A program made the translations under genes and the position numbers. From Gammaproteobacteria bacterium HGW-Gammaproteobacteria-1 (GTDB lineage Bacteria; Pseudomonadota; Gammaproteobacteria; Thiohalomonadales; Thiohalomonadaceae), in assembly GCA_002840095.1 (NCBI GenBank), contig PGZL01000005.1, positions 1 through 64,000 of the forward strand: 64,000 nucleotides of DNA, given 5' to 3'. Under the pieces are notes generated by a model. It was given only the letters and a program-made list of their open reading frames with translations, did not search any database and was not told the origin of the DNA. Below, one piece after another: positions 45,262 to 63,491 of this stretch (positions within the stretch are counted from its first letter, which is position 1; every line of letters starts with the position of its first letter).

Positions 45262-46401
45262 TCAGTTGCGATAGCTGATTTGCAGGTTGAGCACGTTCTG
45301 CTCCAGTTCAATCTTCTGCCCGGTGCTGTTCTTCACCTCGTTGCTGGGCGCATGCACATAGGACAGGCTGACCGAGGCCTTGTCGGTCAGTTGCCGCGTC
45401 ATGCCCAGGGAGAGGTGATGTTCGGTGACGGCGAGGGAGCCGTAGTTGTTGATGACGTCCTCAGGCCCGATGGGGGAGGCGCCGTAGTTGTAGCCTACGC
45501 GCAGCGTGGTCTTGTCGCTGACCTTCTTCTGCATGGCGATGGCGTATACCGTCTGATCGCTCCAGCCGAAATTCATCGTCATGTTGCCGCCCGGCGTCTT
45601 CAGCGTGACCTTGTCCAGCACGTCGCTGAACTGGATCTGCTTGATGTCGAACTCCACCAGCAGGTCCGGACCCGGCATGTAGGCCAGCCCCACTTGCAGG
45701 GTCTGCGGCGCGTCCATGGTCATCTCGTAATAGCCCGAGTTGGTGTTCCACTTGAACGCGCCCATGTTCTGCTGGCTGACGTAGGACGCACCCAGACGCA
45801 GGGTGTCGCTCAGCTGGTAGGTCAGGCCGACGGCGGCGCCGAATCCGTAGGCCTGGTTCTGCGGCAACTGAAAGCTGGCGTTGTACATGGCCAGGCTCTG
45901 GTAGTCGATGTTGAGGGCGGCGCCGACGTTGAGTTTGTCGTTGACCCGGTAGGCGAAACCGGGCGCAATCTTGTAGAACTGCTTGGTGGTGACCATGGCC
46001 TGGTTGCCCGCCAGCGGCGCGATGTCGGCGAAGTCGACGCCCATGCCGGACAGGCCGGCCATGCCCATGCCCAGGGTCAGCTGGTCGTCGACGCGAAAGG
46101 CTATGGCGCCGGCGGGGATCAGGTACAGATCCGAATCGCTGCTGGCGCCGTTGGCCTTGCGCGGCGGATTGAGAAAGCCGAAGCCCATGTCGGAACGGAA
46201 TTCGTTCATCTCCAGCGTGGCCAGGCCCGCCGGGTTGGTCAGTACCGTGCCGGCATCCTGCGGTGCGGCCACCACGGCGCCGGCCATGCCCCATTGCGTG
46301 GCGGTGACGCCCAGCATCTGGTCGCCGTTGGTGGCATGGGCGCCGCCGGCGATGCTTAGCAGCGCCACGGCCAGTGTGTTTCTGTTGATATTGTTATTCA
46401 T
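45262..46401 (-). CDS. OmpP1/FadL-family outer-membrane transporter
   Basis: A 379-residue FadL-like barrel for import of hydrophobic compounds. The signal peptide (about residues 1-23, ending AGGAHA) is followed by the TNGDQMLGVTATQWGMAGA N-terminal hatch. NPAGLATLEMNEF is a family hallmark, and a barrel ends in LNLQISYRN. Substrates could be fatty acids, hydrocarbons, or in sulfur oxidisers possibly polysulfur, as FadL homologues have been linked to sulfur globules in some groups (inference). First gene of a porin-DUF2892 unit. Confidence 0.9.
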   Translation of the reverse strand: MNNNINRNTLAVALLSIAGGAHATNGDQMLGVTATQWGMAGAVVAAPQDAGTVLTNPAGLATLEMNEFRSDMGFGFLNPPRKANGASSDSDLYLIPAGAIAFRVDDQLTLGMGMAGLSGMGVDFADIAPLAGNQAMVTTKQFYKIAPGFAYRVNDKLNVGAALNIDYQSLAMYNASFQLPQNQAYGFGAAVGLTYQLSDTLRLGASYVSQQNMGAFKWNTNSGYYEMTMDAPQTLQVGLAYMPGPDLLVEFDIKQIQFSDVLDKVTLKTPGGNMTMNFGWSDQTVYAIAMQKKVSDKTTLRVGYNYGASPIGPEDVINNYGSLAVTEHHLSLGMTRQLTDKASVSLSYVHAPSNEVKNSTGQKIELEQNVLNLQISYRN

Positions 46402-46450
46402 GTTTTCTCCTCCCCTTTGGTGGTGATATTCCGCTGTGCCGCGGCTGTTT

Positions 46451-56894: not shown

Positions 56895-56910
56895 TGGCAT
56901 AAATATTGCC
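56895..56910 (+). promoter_or_regulatory. Sigma-54 promoter of sqr
   Basis: TGGCATAAATATTGCC has the invariant GG and GC dinucleotides separated by exactly 10 bases, close to consensus TGGCAC-N5-TTGC. The predicted start is near 56921, giving a 58-nt leader with GAGGAGGAG before ATG 56979. A sigma-54 activator gene lies directly downstream of sqr. Confidence 0.75.
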
Positions 56911-56978: not shown

Positions 56979-58253
56979 ATGGCACATATCGTCATCATGG
57001 GCGCCGGCATCGGCGGTCTGCCTGCGGCATACGATTTCCGCGACGTACTGGGACGGGAGCACGACATCACCGTCGTGAACAGTTCCGACCATTTCAGCTT
57101 CACCCCCTCCAACCCGTGGGTGGCCGTGGGCTGGCGCACGCGCAAGGACGTCACCTTCCCCATGGAAGGCTACCTGGCCAAGAAGGACATCAAGCTCATC
57201 GCCCAGCCCGTCATCGAGCTGAAGCCGGACGAGAGCACCCTGATCGTGCAGGACGGCACTGCCGTCAAGTACGACTACCTGATTATCGCCACCGGCCCCA
57301 AGCTGGCGTTCGAGGAAGTGGAGGGCCTGGGCCCCCACGGCGGTTTCACCCAGTCCGTGTGCACCACCGACCACGCCGAGAAGGCGTATGACGAGTGGCA
57401 GAAGTTCGTGCAGGACCCGGGACCGCTGGTCGTCGGCGCCGTGCAGGGCGCGTCCTGCTTCGGCCCGGCCTACGAGACCGCCTTCATCTACGCCACCGAC
57501 CTGCGCAAGCGCAAGATCCGCGACAAGGTGCCCATGACCTTCGTTACCTCCGAGCCCTATATCGGTCACCTGGGCCTGGGCGGCGTGGGCGATTCCAAGG
57601 GCATGATGGAGTCCGAACTGCGCCAGAACCACATCAAGTGGATCTGCAACGCCAAGGTCACCAAGGTCGAGGCCGGCAAGATGTTCGTGGCCGAGCACAA
57701 TGACAAGGGCGAGGTTATCAAGGAGCACGAGCTGCCGTTCAAGTACTCCATGATGCTGCCGGCCTTCAAGGGCATCGACCCGGTGATGAAGGTGGGTGAG
57801 GACCTGGTCAACCCGCGCGGCTTCGTCAAGGTGGATGCCTTCCAGCGCAATCCCAAGTGGAAAAACATCTACTCCGTGGGCGTCTGCATCGCCATTCCGC
57901 CGGTCGAGGTCACCCCGGTACCCACCGGCACCCCCAAGACCGGTTACATGATCGAGTCCATGGTGTCGGCCACCGCCCACAACATCAAGAACGCCCTGGA
58001 AGGCAAGGACCCGGACGAGAAGGGCACCTGGAACGCCATCTGCCTGGCCGACATGGGTGACACCGGCGTGGCCTTCGTCGCCATGCCGCAGATCCCGCCC
58101 CGCAACGTGTCCTGGATGAAGAAGGGCAAGTGGGTGCACATGGCCAAGGTCGCCTTCGAGAAGTACTTCATCAACAAGATGAAGAAGGGCTCCTCCGAGC
58201 CCCTGTTCGAGAAGTATGTCCTCAAGGCCCTGGGCATCGAGCGCCTGAAGTAA
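56979..58253 (+). CDS. sqr: Sulfide:quinone oxidoreductase (Acidithiobacillus-type)
   Basis: A 424-residue FAD flavoprotein that oxidises sulfide and passes electrons to quinone. It is peripheral on the periplasmic face in characterised relatives. Seen: the FAD motif IVIMGAGIGGLPAAYDF (residues 4-20), FTPSNPWVAVGW, YDYLIIATGPKLAFE, the two redox Cys at 128 (QSVCTTDHAEKA) and 160 (GASCFGPAYE), the third at 355 (WNAICLADMGD), PVPTGTPKTGYMIESM with the C-terminal FAD site, and an amphipathic end (KVAFEKYFINKMKKG) for membrane binding. All three Cys match the Acidithiobacillus ferrooxidans enzyme. Controlled by a sigma-54 promoter at 56895. Confidence 0.93.
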   Translation: MAHIVIMGAGIGGLPAAYDFRDVLGREHDITVVNSSDHFSFTPSNPWVAVGWRTRKDVTFPMEGYLAKKDIKLIAQPVIELKPDESTLIVQDGTAVKYDYLIIATGPKLAFEEVEGLGPHGGFTQSVCTTDHAEKAYDEWQKFVQDPGPLVVGAVQGASCFGPAYETAFIYATDLRKRKIRDKVPMTFVTSEPYIGHLGLGGVGDSKGMMESELRQNHIKWICNAKVTKVEAGKMFVAEHNDKGEVIKEHELPFKYSMMLPAFKGIDPVMKVGEDLVNPRGFVKVDAFQRNPKWKNIYSVGVCIAIPPVEVTPVPTGTPKTGYMIESMVSATAHNIKNALEGKDPDEKGTWNAICLADMGDTGVAFVAMPQIPPRNVSWMKKGKWVHMAKVAFEKYFINKMKKGSSEPLFEKYVLKALGIERLK

Positions 58254-58276
58254 GCGGGTGCAAGGTGGCTGAAAAG

Positions 58277-58301
58277 CGGCGGGGCTGGTCCCCGCCGTTT
58301 T
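58277..58301 (+). terminator. Intrinsic terminator of sqr
   Basis: CGGCGGGG-CTGGT-CCCCGCCG followed by TTTTC, 24 nt after the stop. It isolates sqr from the regulator gene, which therefore needs its own promoter. Confidence 0.9.
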
Positions 58302-58335
58302 CATTTGGAGTGCGGGAGGGTACTCTGTCGGGTAT

Positions 58336-58372
58336 TGACATGACAGATTGGCGGGCAGAAGATGTCATGACA
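58336..58372. promoter_or_regulatory. Paired palindromic operators upstream of the sigma-54 activator gene
   Basis: TGACATGACA (58336-58345) and the perfect palindrome TGTCATGACA (58363-58372) have centres 27 bp apart. The same TGTCATGACA occurs at 60082-60091, upstream of the predicted small RNA. TTGACA at 58335-58340 could also act as a -35 element. Likely binding sites for the adjacent Fis-type regulator (autoregulation), by inference. Confidence 0.65.
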
Positions 58373-58419
58373 CTGACTGCCATATAAAAACAAAAACAGT
58401 TACGTCTGGAGGAGAGAAC

Positions 58420-59766
58420 ATGAGCTGCGACAGCATCGCCAAACCGTCCTGCGAACAAATCATCAACATCCTGCCCGATCCCTTCGTGGTCATCGACCGC
58501 AACTACCGCATCATGGCCGCCAACGCCCAGTACCGCAGGCGCTACGGCCTGGGCAACGGCGACGACGTGGTCGGCCGCTTTTGCTACGAGGTTTCGCACC
58601 GGGTGGACACCCCGTGCAGCCAGCACGGCGAGCACTGCCCCCTGGAGATCGTGTTCAGCACCGGGCAGTCGACCCAGGTGATGCACGTCCACTACGACAT
58701 GAACGGCCACGAGGAATACGTCCAGCTGCAATCGACGCCGCTGTTCGACGACAAGGGCAAGGTGCTGTACGTGGGGGAGTACATCTTCCCCATCAGCCAG
58801 AAGCGGCAGGACACCCTGCTTATCGGCCGCTCCCGCCCCATGGTGCGCATGACCAGCCTGTTGCAGCGCGTCGCTCCCACCACCACCACGGTGCTGCTGC
58901 TGGGCGAAAGCGGCGTGGGCAAGGAGTGCGTGGCCAAATACGTACACGAGTATTCGCCCCGCGGCGGCGGCCCCTTCGTCATCGTCGACTGCGGCACCCT
59001 GGGCGAGAACCTCATCGAGAGCGAGCTGTTCGGCCATGAAAAGGGCGCCTTTACCGGTGCCACGGGGCGCAAGAAGGGCCTGTTCGAGGTGGCCCACGGC
59101 GGCACCCTGTTCATCGACGAAATCGCCGAATTGCCCCTGGCCCTGCAAACCAAGCTGCTGCGCGTACTGGAGACCGGCACCATCCGCCGCCTCGGCGGCA
59201 CCGAGTACATCAATGTGGACGTGCGCGTGGTCGCGGCAACCCACGGCGATCTGCAGCGCATGGTGGAGCGCGGCGCGTTCCGCCAGGATCTGTATTACCG
59301 CCTGTCCGCCTTCCCGGTGCACATCCCGCCGCTGCGCGACCGGCCCGACGACATCGCCGCCCTGGCGGAGCACTTCCTGGCCAGCAGCGAAGATGCCGAT
59401 CGCTACATCCCGCTGTCGCCCGAGGTGATCGAGACCCTGATGACCTACGACTATCCGGGCAACGCCCGTGAGCTGCGCAACATCGTCGAGCGCGCGGCGA
59501 TCCTGGCCTACGGCGAGGACATCATCCGCCCGGAACACCTGGTGTTCGAGGGACCGCGGCGCGAGGACGCGCAGGGCGGCGGCGGGCTCGACATGGGCCT
59601 GGCCGCCAGCGGCCGGCGCATGCTGCAGCGGCGCAACGGCCGGCTGACCGATGACGAGGTGCTGCACGCCCTGGAAAGCTGCGACGGCCACCGCGCCAAG
59701 GCGGCGCAACGGCTCGGGGTGAGCGAACGTACCCTGTATCGCTACGTGGAGCGCATGCGCGGGTAG
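58420..59766 (+). CDS. Sigma-54-dependent PAS-AAA-Fis activator
   Basis: A 448-residue enhancer-binding protein. A PAS domain (about 10-125) carries a Cys/His cluster, [20 protein letters not shown] (residues 49-68), which may bind metal or haem or act as a redox switch. The AAA+ domain (about 140-380) has Walker A GESGVGKE, the sigma-54 contact loop GAFTGA (in [13 protein letters not shown]), Walker [14 protein letters not shown] and the Arg finger region [15 protein letters not shown]. The C terminus is a Fis-type helix-turn-helix ([20 protein letters not shown]). GGAGGAG precedes ATG 58420. Context suggests sulfide- or redox-responsive control of sqr and of the small RNA at 59904-60003. 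The stop is formed by a repeat. Confidence 0.92.
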
Positions 59767-59827: not shown

Positions 59828-59903
59828 GGGTGTCGTCATGTGCGGATTATCCGGGCCTCCTGGCGAGGGCGACGGGTGTTCCCTTTTTCCCGGCCTGAAA
59901 ACG

Positions 59904-60003
59904 AAAAAAGCCGCGCCATTACGGACGCGGCTAAAAACACCACAGTGTGGAAGGAGGGGAATCCGCCACATGGCTCCGTCGGAGCAATGTGGTTTTACTC
60001 CAC
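59904..60003 (-). ncRNA. Predicted sigma-54-dependent small RNA with an anti-Shine-Dalgarno region
   Basis: From the promoter at 60015-60030, the predicted transcript runs about 60003 to 59904. The 5' hairpin (59992-59966) pairs CCACAT with ATGTGG and GCTCC with GGAGC. A single-stranded stretch CGGATTCCCCTCCTT follows (59965-59951), complementary to strong Shine-Dalgarno sequences. After a small CCAC-ACT-GTGG hairpin comes a strong terminator, AGCCGCG...CGCGGCT (59932-59909) with six T. No ORF of note lies inside. The layout (5' hairpin, exposed CCUCC, U-run terminator) is typical of trans-acting regulatory RNAs. Targets such as sqr or the activator mRNA are speculative. Confidence 0.65.
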
Positions 60004-60014
60004 GGCAATAATTT

Positions 60015-60030
60015 TGCAACTCCTATGCCA
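60015..60030 (-). promoter_or_regulatory. Sigma-54 promoter of the predicted small RNA
   Basis: On the minus strand TGGCATAGGAGTTGCA has GG-N10-GC and a full TTGCA -12 element, one of the best matches to consensus one could expect. The predicted start is near 60003. Confidence 0.8.
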
Positions 60031-60081
60031 TAAAGTATCCGATTGATTTATAAGTACAAATATTCTGCGGTATAGGCTGTT

Positions 60082-60091
60082 TGTCATGACA
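60082..60091. promoter_or_regulatory. Upstream activating palindrome TGTCATGACA
   Basis: A perfect 10-bp palindrome centred about 83 bp upstream of the predicted small-RNA start, ideal spacing for an enhancer-binding protein. Identical to the operator at 58363-58372. A TGTCAG half-site follows at about 60097. The surrounding 59828-59903 and 60031-60144 hold no gene. Confidence 0.7.
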
Positions 60092-60144
60092 GATGGTGTC
60101 AGCTGGCATGCCTGGCGCAAACTTCAGCTTCTGTCAGGTCCTCC

Positions 60145-61395: not shown

Positions 61396-62286
61396 TCAGT
61401 CGCGGTAGCGGCGCAGCAGGTCGCCGTAGGCGTCGATGCGGCGGTCGCGCAGGTAGGGCCAGGCGCGGCGCACCTGTTCGGTGCGGCCCAGGTCGACCTC
61501 GGCCACCAGGAAGGTGGGGTCGTCCTCCGGCGCCTGGGCGAGGATTTCGCCCTGTTGGCCGCAGATGAAGCTGTAGCCCCAGAAGTTGATGCCCGGCGTC
61601 CGGCCCGAAGGGTCGGCCTCGAAGCCGACACGGTTGCAGGCCATGACCGGAACACCGTTGGCGACGGCGTGGCTGCGCTGGATGGTGACCCAGGCATCGC
61701 GCTGACGCAGCTGCTCGTCCAGTTCGGCGCGTTCGTCCCAGCCGATGGCGCTGGGATAGAGCAGGATCTCCGCGCCGGCCAGGGCCATCAGCCGCGCCGC
61801 TTCCGGATACCACTGATCCCAGCACACCAGCACGCCGAGGCGTCCCACCGAAGTGTCGATGGGCGTGAAGCCCAGATCGCCCGGTGTGAAATAGTATTTT
61901 TCGTAATAGCCGGGATCGTCCGGGATGTGCATCTTGCGGTAGAGGCCGGCGATGCTGCCGTCCTTTTCCAGCACCACGGCGGTGTTGTGATACAGGCCTG
62001 GGGCGCGCCGCTCGAACACCGAACCGACGATGACGATGCCCAGTTCCTGCGCCAGTTCCGCCAGGGCGTCGGTAGTGGGGCCGGGAATGGGTTCGGCCTG
62101 ATCGAAACGTGCCGGGTCTTCCGACTGGCAGAAGTACACGCCGCCGTGCAGTTCCTGCAACAGCACCAGTTCGGCGCCGTCGGCCGCCGCCGCGCGGATC
62201 TCCAGCGAGCTGTAATAGAGATTGGTTTCGCGGTCCTCGCTGCAGGGCTGCTGGACCAGGCCGACACGCAGGGTTCGTGATTTCAT
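61396..62286 (-). CDS. aguB: N-carbamoylputrescine amidase
   Basis: A 296-residue nitrilase-superfamily amidase that turns N-carbamoylputrescine into putrescine. Catalytic triad regions seen: Glu in LVLLQELHGGVYFCQ (about 45), Lys in YRKMHIPDDPGYYEKYYF (about 118), and Cys in LVCWDQWYPEAARLMAL (about 154). GFTPIDTS and GINFWGYSFICG are family features. ATG 62286 has GGAGG six bases upstream. Forms a two-step pathway with aguA just upstream on the same strand. Confidence 0.95.
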   Translation of the reverse strand: MKSRTLRVGLVQQPCSEDRETNLYYSSLEIRAAAADGAELVLLQELHGGVYFCQSEDPARFDQAEPIPGPTTDALAELAQELGIVIVGSVFERRAPGLYHNTAVVLEKDGSIAGLYRKMHIPDDPGYYEKYYFTPGDLGFTPIDTSVGRLGVLVCWDQWYPEAARLMALAGAEILLYPSAIGWDERAELDEQLRQRDAWVTIQRSHAVANGVPVMACNRVGFEADPSGRTPGINFWGYSFICGQQGEILAQAPEDDPTFLVAEVDLGRTEQVRRAWPYLRDRRIDAYGDLLRRYRD

Positions 62287-62306
62287 CACATCCTCCACAA
62301 GGATGA

Positions 62307-62394
62307 GTCCGCAAATGAACGCGAATTAACGCGAATACAACTTTGCCGGGGAAGAATAGCTTTCATTGGCGTGCATTCGCGTTCATTTGCGGAC
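62307..62394. repeat. Tandem-word palindrome (CGCAAATGAA family)
   Basis: Thirty-base arms GTCCGCAAATGAACGCGAAT...(62307-62336) and its inverse (62365-62394) enclose a 28-nt loop. Located between aguA and aguB, inside the presumed operon mRNA. Third member of the family in the window. Confidence 0.9.
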
Positions 62395-62402
62395 CCGATT
62401 TT

Positions 62403-63431
62403 TCATACCACCCCTGCCGGCAGTTGCATGGTGACGCAGTGCAGGCTGCCGTATTGCTGGATCAGGGGCAGGCAGTTGATGGCGATGATCTCGCGGCCGG
62501 GAAAGCAGGGAGCCAGGCGCTCCAGCGCCACCCCATCCATGACGTCGTCGTAGACCGGCAGCAGCACCGCGCCGTTGAGGATGAGGAAGTTGGCGTAGGT
62601 GGCGGGCAGGCGCTGGCCGTGTTCGTTGAGCTTGGGGGAGGGCAGCGGCAGCGGTACCAGGCGGTAGGGCCGGCCGTCGTTGTCGCGGAAGCCCCTCAGT
62701 TCGCGCTCCATTTCCTGCAAGGCTGCGTAATGGCTGTCGCGCGGGTTGTCGCAGCGCACGTAGGCGATGGTGTGTTCGTCGCAGAAGCGCGCCAGGGTGT
62801 CGATATGGCCGTCGGTGTCGTCGCCTTCCAGTTCGCCGTGGTCCAGCCACAGCACGCGCCTGCTGCCGAACACCTGGGCAAAGAGCCCTTCCAGGCCGAC
62901 GCAGTCGTATTCGGGATTGCGCTGCGGGTTGAGCAGGCAGTGACGGGTGGTGAGCAGGGTGCCCTGGCCGTCGCTTTCGATGCTGCCGCCTTCCAGGATC
63001 AGGTCCACGCCCTCCAGCGGCGTGGCGCCGAACACGCCCTGGCCGTGCAGGGCGCGGGTGAGGGCGTTGTCCAGATCGTAGGGGTATTTGCGGCCCCAGC
63101 CGTTGAAGGCGAAGTCCAGCAGCAACGGTGCGCCGTCGCGCAGCACGGTGATGGGACCGTGGTCGCGTGCCCACACGTCGTTGGACGGCGCGATGGCCAG
63201 CCGCACCCGGCCGGTGTCGATGCCGGCGGTGGTCAGCCGGCCGGCGACGTGGTCGCGATGTTCTTCGTGCAGGCAGGAAACGATCAGCGGTTCATGGGCG
63301 GTGACGGCGCGGGCAATGCTCAGGAACACCGCTTCCACCTGTTCCAGGATGCGGCCCAGCGGGCCGTGGCGGTGGGGCCAGGTGAGCATCACCGCGCTTT
63401 GCGGCGACCATTCGGCGGGCAGTATCTGCAT
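62403..63431 (-). CDS. aguA: Agmatine deiminase
   Basis: A 342-residue pentein-fold hydrolase converting agmatine to N-carbamoylputrescine. Seen: PAEWSPQSAVMLTWPHRHG, NDVWARDHGPITVL with the substrate Asp, GGSIESDGQGTLLTT with the Glu, LDHGELEGDDTDGHIDTLARF with the catalytic His, and the Cys nucleophile in SLHCVTMQLP (about 334). Start ATG 63431 (MQILPAEW). GTG 63443 is an alternative and neither has a good ribosome-binding site. With aguB it gives putrescine from arginine-derived agmatine. Confidence 0.95.
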   Translation of the reverse strand: MQILPAEWSPQSAVMLTWPHRHGPLGRILEQVEAVFLSIARAVTAHEPLIVSCLHEEHRDHVAGRLTTAGIDTGRVRLAIAPSNDVWARDHGPITVLRDGAPLLLDFAFNGWGRKYPYDLDNALTRALHGQGVFGATPLEGVDLILEGGSIESDGQGTLLTTRHCLLNPQRNPEYDCVGLEGLFAQVFGSRRVLWLDHGELEGDDTDGHIDTLARFCDEHTIAYVRCDNPRDSHYAALQEMERELRGFRDNDGRPYRLVPLPLPSPKLNEHGQRLPATYANFLILNGAVLLPVYDDVMDGVALERLAPCFPGREIIAINCLPLIQQYGSLHCVTMQLPAGVV

Positions 63432-63491
63432 GGGGGGAAGCACCGCGTGCGGTCGCGCTGAGACAACCGCATGAATTGGAGGGAGATGCGG

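Follow-up and report, generated by a model that had tools for sequence, protein, structure and literature searches.

Does the DNA beside the gene for a PAS-AAA-Fis regulator encode a small RNA under the control of that regulator and, if so, what would such an RNA do? The window (the whole 64,000-nucleotide stretch analysed) contains on its minus strand a sigma-54 (-24/-12) promoter, TGGCATAGGAGTTGCA (60015-60030), which a motif search returned as the sole zero-mismatch match to the consensus TGGCAYRNNNNTTGCW in the 64 kb scanned; the original prediction had called it near-perfect. The palindrome TGTCATGACA, located by pattern search at 60082-60091 and presumed to be the FisR-type activator site of this promoter, is placed so that its distal edge is 61 bp upstream of the -24 element; it lies about 82 bp from the predicted transcript start (~60005/60004), compared with the 83 bp first proposed. 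An intrinsic terminator (GCCGCGTCC...GGCGCGGC followed by T6; 59904-59931, minus strand) has a GC-rich stem at 59931-59910; taking the start from the promoter and the end from the terminator gives a predicted sRNA of ~101 nt (59904-60005, minus strand). The predicted transcript (103 nt as folded) has an energy of -41.9 kcal/mol compared with a shuffle mean of -28.6 kcal/mol (z = -3.7), with 0 of 200 shuffles as low, so that the proposed transcript of about 100 nt with a 5' hairpin and a terminator is borne out at the level of predicted structure.

The 5' hairpin (59966-59992, minus strand), identified by folding, has a stem whose sequence varies among species, and the 5' part alone gives folding z values from -1.2 to -4.1. 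Between two close relatives, three of its ten base pairs are changed on both sides and none is broken, values that 58 of 500 shuffles also reach and which are weak by themselves; because alignments of the 5' hairpin are unreliable across nine sequences, and likewise across the five of the genus, we claim covariation for this one clean sequence pair only. The anti-Shine-Dalgarno stretch CCCCUCCUU (CCCCTCCTT; 59951-59959, minus strand) was assigned from the sequence and the fold ensemble. Its original description as exposed fits the CCCC (unpaired probability at least 0.88) and the UU (0.86-0.92), but not the UCC, which is unpaired with a probability of only 0.18-0.29. CCCCUCCUU is kept within the genus, and other CU-rich versions occur in the remaining homologues. 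The conserved core CCACACUGUGGUG (59938-59950, minus strand) can form a 4-bp hairpin, CCAC-ACU-GUGG, for which no covariation support was found and whose stem is shifted outward in L027; as ACACUGUGGUG, the core is invariant in nine sequences and altered in L025, L026 and L027. A scan of the whole window against Rfam at gathering scores returned only a tRNA, and the sRNA is thus without a family. The transcript might instead be a short mRNA encoding a small protein, as ATG-started frames in single sequences would allow; this is barely credible, given that the ATG frames of G000 and G002 (two sequences, compared by eye) do not read the conserved CCCCTCC in the same register and that the stem sequences change while pairing is kept.

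A DNA search with 59890-60100 against 144 genomes gave matches in 10, comprising the source genome, eight real relatives (four within the genus and four elsewhere in the family, in different genera) and a false match (G097, L015), which is AT-rich and lacks the core. Seven of the eight relatives match solely in the transcript and terminator, not in the promoter, L007 matching in both; in all eight, a correctly spaced sigma-54 promoter is accompanied by CATGACA-type sites, the promoter of L010 being one that a stricter sigma-54 motif missed. A covariance model (R1) built from the source sequence and these eight relatives gave matches in 13 of the 20 family genomes, which are the same 20 as those of the order; the match in G012 (L028) and a second one in G001 (L029), both without a sigma-54 promoter or sites, were dropped. 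The sRNA is kept in 12 of the 20 genomes (G000-G005, G009, G010, G011, G013, G017 and G018), and the three loci newly found by the model, L025-L027, were accepted partly on their own promoters and sites. The original prediction had pointed to relatives with the same regulator as the place where promoter, palindrome and terminator should recur. TGGCAY and the -12 GC of the promoter are retained in 12/12 homologues, the terminator is likewise present in 12/12, and at least one heptamer (CATGACA, TGTCATG, CATGTCA or TGACATG) lies within 150 bp upstream in 12/12, compared with a mean of 1.34 and a maximum of 6 for 300 dinucleotide shuffles. TGWCATGWCA with at most one mismatch is found upstream of nine of the 12 sRNAs (shuffle mean 0.53, maximum 3); G003, G010 and G013 have no upstream site within one mismatch of it, and these three, together with G004, have a single heptamer only.

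The sRNA is also found in Thiohalomonas denitrificans isolate BE2011_63_42 (L068), which makes Thiohalomonadaceae the probable identity of the family. A pattern scan of named genomes gave 13 matches, about seven being expected by chance; six were true and seven were dropped, none of the latter having a site within 150 bp upstream or, by eye, a T-run terminator. Among 369 genomes drawn from the class, only four of them from the family, a pattern search gave three matches, all inside the family and none outside it. The class-wide model search (R2), run with strict filters, gave matches outside the family in 22 genomes; a sigma-54 motif, loosened form included, is present upstream in 0 of the 21 loci viewed, the stricter of the motifs used being one that missed the true G010 promoter. 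Sixteen of these 21 loci (15 aligned) bear the core of a second RNA, considered below.

The gene convergent with the sRNA (58420-59766, plus strand) encodes, by domain scan, a FisR-like regulator with PAS_4, sigma-54 activator AAA+ and HTH_8 domains. A close orthologue (65-92% identity, 627-1022 bits) is present in 12 of the 20 family genomes, exactly those with the sRNA; in the remaining eight, three of which are less than 85% complete, the best regulator match is at most 359 bits and the sRNA was not found. Counted by genomes, with ancestry ignored, such a coincidence would arise by chance once in 125,970; counted by genus (both present in six of 11, neither in five), the figure is 1 in 462. 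The two genes lie on one contig, within about 2.3 kb of each other, in eight of the 12 genomes, and on different contigs in G005, G009, G013 and G018. As judged from comparative sequence, 60005-59904 (minus strand) is a real, conserved and regulator-linked small RNA gene with a predicted transcript. That a chance promoter merely stands beside the ordinary terminator of the regulator gene, with no independent RNA, would accord with a stem-loop that could end the convergent regulator transcript, but is rendered highly improbable by the presence of core, promoter and sites together in 12 genomes, including the four with the regulator on another contig.

The palindrome also precedes the regulator gene, as had been proposed: pattern search located the variant TGACATGACA at 58336-58345 and a second copy of TGTCATGACA at 58363-58372 (58336-58372 overall), the two copies of TGTCATGACA, at 58363 and 60082, thus flanking the gene. 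Heptamer sites occur within 150 bp upstream of the regulator gene in 12/12 genomes; among regulator paralogues, a single heptamer is found upstream in 1/9. With one mismatch allowed, the palindrome has four matches in the window; as 8 of 100 shuffles reach that number, the window count is weak evidence by itself. The whole 4.23-Mb genome has five exact sites versus two for the reversed-pattern control; three of the five sit at promoters of the sulfide-oxidation regulon described below, and one of the five starts 68 bp upstream of the sigma-54 promoter at G000:C3:381749. Control of the putative sRNA by the adjacent activator, acting on a sigma-54 promoter, is supported.

Bacterial sulfide and persulfide sensing is known as control at the level of transcription, exerted by regulators such as FisR, SqrR and BigR. 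In the regulator described here, Cys11, Cys55, Cys66 and Cys73 are invariant in 12/12 orthologues, and the spacing of the last three equals that of Cys53, Cys64 and Cys71 reported for Cupriavidus FisR. Its architecture, neighbouring genes and cysteine spacing point to a FisR-type sensor of sulfide or persulfide as its most likely identity. A point against this is that FisR of Acinetobacter baumannii, which PMC7315123 describes as a sigma-54 activator controlling an operon for sulfide oxidation, lacks these cysteines. The regulator resembles FisR of Cupriavidus and Acinetobacter, as far as the accounts of these cover it, in being a sigma-54 activator of the Fis family beside sulfide-oxidation genes for which a sigma-54 promoter is predicted; it differs from the FisR regulons in the fcc operons and the palindrome found here, and the term 'small RNA' has 0 occurrences in PMC7315123.

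The pattern CATGWCA, 35-65 bp and a sigma-54 promoter has 19 matches in nine of the 20 family genomes, versus two for the reversed pattern. Seven are sRNA promoters (in six genomes), four stand before sulfide dehydrogenase operons, and eight are unexplained or lie inside genes. In G000 (G000:C3:381749, L113/L125), G001 (L118/L126) and G002 (L114/L127), the site and a sigma-54 promoter stand before a nine-CxxCH cytochrome gene with fccB next in line; in G009 (L107/L128) they stand before a napC-ankyrin-cytochrome-fccB operon. Pfam identified FccB in G002 and G009, and similarity to the protein so identified did so for G001 (94% identity) and for the first operon of G000 (91%); a second G000 fcc operon (L141), with FccB assigned by Pfam, has weaker sites. 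Since the site and sigma-54 promoter stand before flavocytochrome c sulfide dehydrogenase operons, we take these genes to form a sulfide-oxidation regulon, with a FisR-type regulator most likely. In both G011 and G017, the sRNA is separated from the regulator by two rhodanese genes, the first of which has a sigma-54 motif about 0.38 kb upstream. One of the eight remaining pattern matches belongs to a gene of the formate/nitrite transporter family in G011 (L108; G011:C8:44673), which thus has the site and a sigma-54 promoter; our guess is that it may encode a hydrosulfide channel.

The same transporter-family gene could be cited for a regulator that does not sense sulfide but some different signal, perhaps a respiratory or redox one; the genes for fcc, cytochromes and the sRNA would then belong to a wider anaerobic or lithotrophic regulon. 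The fcc operons also encode multihaem and NapC-type cytochromes, and PAS cysteines are not unique to FisR. We regard such a signal as unlikely, as the sqr neighbour in nine of 12 genomes, fccB and the rhodanese genes of G011 and G017 point to sulfide or sulfane sulfur.

The sqr gene (56979-58253, plus strand) encodes a sulfide:quinone oxidoreductase of 424 residues, closest to solved SQR structures (E = 3.8e-169), and adjoins the regulator gene in 9/12 genomes. That it has its own sigma-54 promoter, as originally proposed, is confirmed by motif search (TGGCATAAATATTGCC; 56895-56910, plus strand), the promoter being conserved as a motif match in six of nine loci and as a looser match by eye in the other three. 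No palindrome site was found upstream of sqr in these nine loci (about 190 bp only in G004); in G009, one heptamer overlaps the sqr start codon. Given this lack of an upstream palindrome, activation of sqr by the regulator is an inference. Of the proposed circuit, in which one activator would induce both sulfide oxidation and the RNA, the co-occurrence of regulator and sRNA and the sites at the sRNA and fcc promoters argue in favour, but the sqr branch is without its palindrome. The sole palindromes near sqr in the window are downstream of it, before the regulator (within 58254-58419), and in the other loci examined, too, the nearest sites lie between the two genes; the palindromes there could have a part in autoregulation, or could enhance sqr transcription from the downstream side.

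Control of an sRNA by a sigma-54 activator, often with the sRNA encoded beside the activator gene, is familiar from the Qrr sRNAs with LuxO and from CrcZ with CbrB. The sRNA described here resembles both in its predicted sigma-54 activator control and neighbouring activator gene, but has no Rfam match to them and is associated with another signal and regulon, that of sulfide oxidation. Qrr1 is located beside luxO in the account given in part of PMC5688073. The Rfam family that recurs is RF02278 (Betaproteobacteria_toxic_sRNA, the double-hairpin or 'toxic' sRNAs such as Burkholderia ncS03/05/27/62 and bdhR1); these RNAs and Bordetella S17, in the sections of the sources devoted to them, are likewise short, with hairpins, a CU-rich unpaired stretch complementary to ribosome-binding sites and a terminator. 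Action at ribosome-binding sites by way of CU-rich regions is a prediction for the RF02278 RNAs and has been demonstrated for S17, the target of which is a sigma-54 activator (relevant sections of PMC5688073, PMC11722255). Unlike RF02278 members, the sRNA has its CU stretch mainly before the small hairpin and scores 21-26 bits against a gathering threshold of 50: 21.4 bits in the window and 25.4-25.7 bits in three of the six relatives scanned, the other three not being listed at E values up to 0.5. RF02278 is the only Rfam family matched in those three relatives and the second in the window, where it is outranked by rli61 (26.2 bits, threshold 50), presumably a chance match. Unlike S17, for which a sigma-A promoter is reported in the section concerned of PMC11722255, the sRNA has a sigma-54 promoter and activator sites. 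From sequence likeness, the sulfide-linked sRNA may be a divergent sibling of these CU-rich double-hairpin RNAs.

The class-wide model search led to a second RNA, with the core CUCCUCCAUCCUCCUUUGGUGG, which scores 30-45 bits with RF02278 in all ten loci scanned and, being below the threshold in each, is apparently uncatalogued. Its model (R3) finds it in 64 of 138 genomes, including 17 of the 20 in the family; its loci include L178-L226, and the copy in the source genome is at G000:C44:100254-100311 (L219). This sibling has a sigma-70-type promoter, a 5' hairpin and a terminator: the 14 family copies read, out of 17, all have a promoter of the TTGAC...TATATT type and none (0/14) has a sigma-54 motif. 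The 12 sulfide-linked sRNAs score 22.3-41.8 bits with R3, the best unrelated match being at 23.3 bits, so that 11 of the 12 lie above it, some barely. NmsRb (RF02877) was listed for one sigma-70 sibling only (28.6 bits, threshold 52), and not for the sRNA; the Neisseria NmsR/RcoF pair, as described in part of PMC5688073, resembles the sRNA and its sibling in consisting of sibling sRNAs whose CU-rich stretches are directed at ribosome-binding sites. In open-access PMC literature, from which subscription journals may differ, no paper contains both 'FisR' and 'sRNA', and none prints the core of the sibling.

An extended match, GGAAGGAG, before ATG occurs 76 times in five genomes versus 71 for the reversed control, and no conserved target emerged among the 30 of 76 viewed; a ranking of the window genes with RNAduplex was confounded by GC content and by wrongly assigned starts. 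Pairing with the leader of the regulator itself (GGAGGAG/GGAGGGG or similar) was seen by eye in the genus only, and, because this GGAGG-type match is confined to the genus, feedback of the sRNA on its regulator is possible but not conserved. The leader of a gene for a FadL/TodX-type outer-membrane protein (46401-45262, minus strand) is complementary in its ribosome-binding region (46397-46428) to the sibling, with 11 contiguous pairs and seven over the Shine-Dalgarno sequence (by eye). Only three of 31,984 window positions pair better with the sibling, this leader being third best after overlaps are merged, whereas 137 positions pair better with the sulfide-linked sRNA; the gene is therefore a candidate target of the sibling and a weak one for the sRNA. 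The description of the sRNA as a repressor accordingly stands in part: the anti-Shine-Dalgarno stretch and the likeness to double-hairpin/S17 RNAs favour it, but no conserved target was found.

With a probability of about 0.74, we favour the reading that the sRNA is made by sigma-54 RNA polymerase under a FisR-like regulator responding to sulfide or persulfide and, with Hfq, represses mRNAs by Shine-Dalgarno pairing during sulfide oxidation. Sulfide or persulfides would most likely be sensed by the cysteines of the PAS domain, and the active regulator, to judge from its sites, would bind the CATGACA-type palindromes. It would then drive the sigma-54 promoters seen before the sRNA and fcc operons and would probably act on sqr; sites of this kind also stand before its own gene. 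The predicted RNA has a 5' hairpin, then a largely single-stranded CU-rich stretch that mimics the 16S rRNA 3' end, and lastly a small second hairpin with the terminator after it; together with Hfq, the gene for which is present in the genome, it would most likely pair with Shine-Dalgarno regions and so repress a set of mRNAs while sulfide is oxidised. The sRNA could be a true member of the regulon and yet a sponge for a protein or another sRNA, or pair via CCACACUGUGGUG instead of the anti-Shine-Dalgarno stretch, given that the ACACUGUGGUG core is its most conserved part, beyond what a plain anti-Shine-Dalgarno RNA would call for, and that CCACACUGUGG is nearly self-complementary. We think this improbable: the core varies in L025, L026 and L027 while the CU-rich letters stay, and related double-hairpin RNAs are reported, in the part of PMC5688073 that treats them, to work through the CU-rich region.

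Both kinds of RNA, the sigma-54-activated sRNA and the CU-rich anti-Shine-Dalgarno sRNA, are already known, and no new molecular principle is involved. If the favoured reading, repression under FisR-type control, is right, an RNA arm is added to sulfide sensing, one that extends over six genera within a single sulfur-oxidising family and could explain how lithotrophs lower competing translation when sulfide arrives. As to its origin, we tentatively suggest, with the odds somewhat against it, that the sRNA is a duplicated and re-promotered copy of the sigma-70 sibling, captured by a sulfide-sensing sigma-54 activator; with shared targets, such as the FadL-type gene, sulfide would add a second dose of repressor and help switch the cell from organic uptake to sulfide lithotrophy. 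The analysis also provides a clear candidate binding motif and regulon for a FisR-type regulator, and a pointer to a large family of gammaproteobacterial RNAs, none of the Rfam thresholds being reached by it.

Two further observations concern neighbouring and related genes. A paralogous PAS-AAA-Fis regulator gene of the source genome (L100/L043; G000:C31:46468-47975) has a sigma-54 promoter just beside it, without palindromes, and the gene after that promoter encodes what we take to resemble subunit I of cytochrome bd. In the window, 61396-63443 (minus strand) carries genes of the carbon-nitrogen hydrolase and peptidyl-arginine deiminase families, probably an ordinary agmatine/putrescine pathway.
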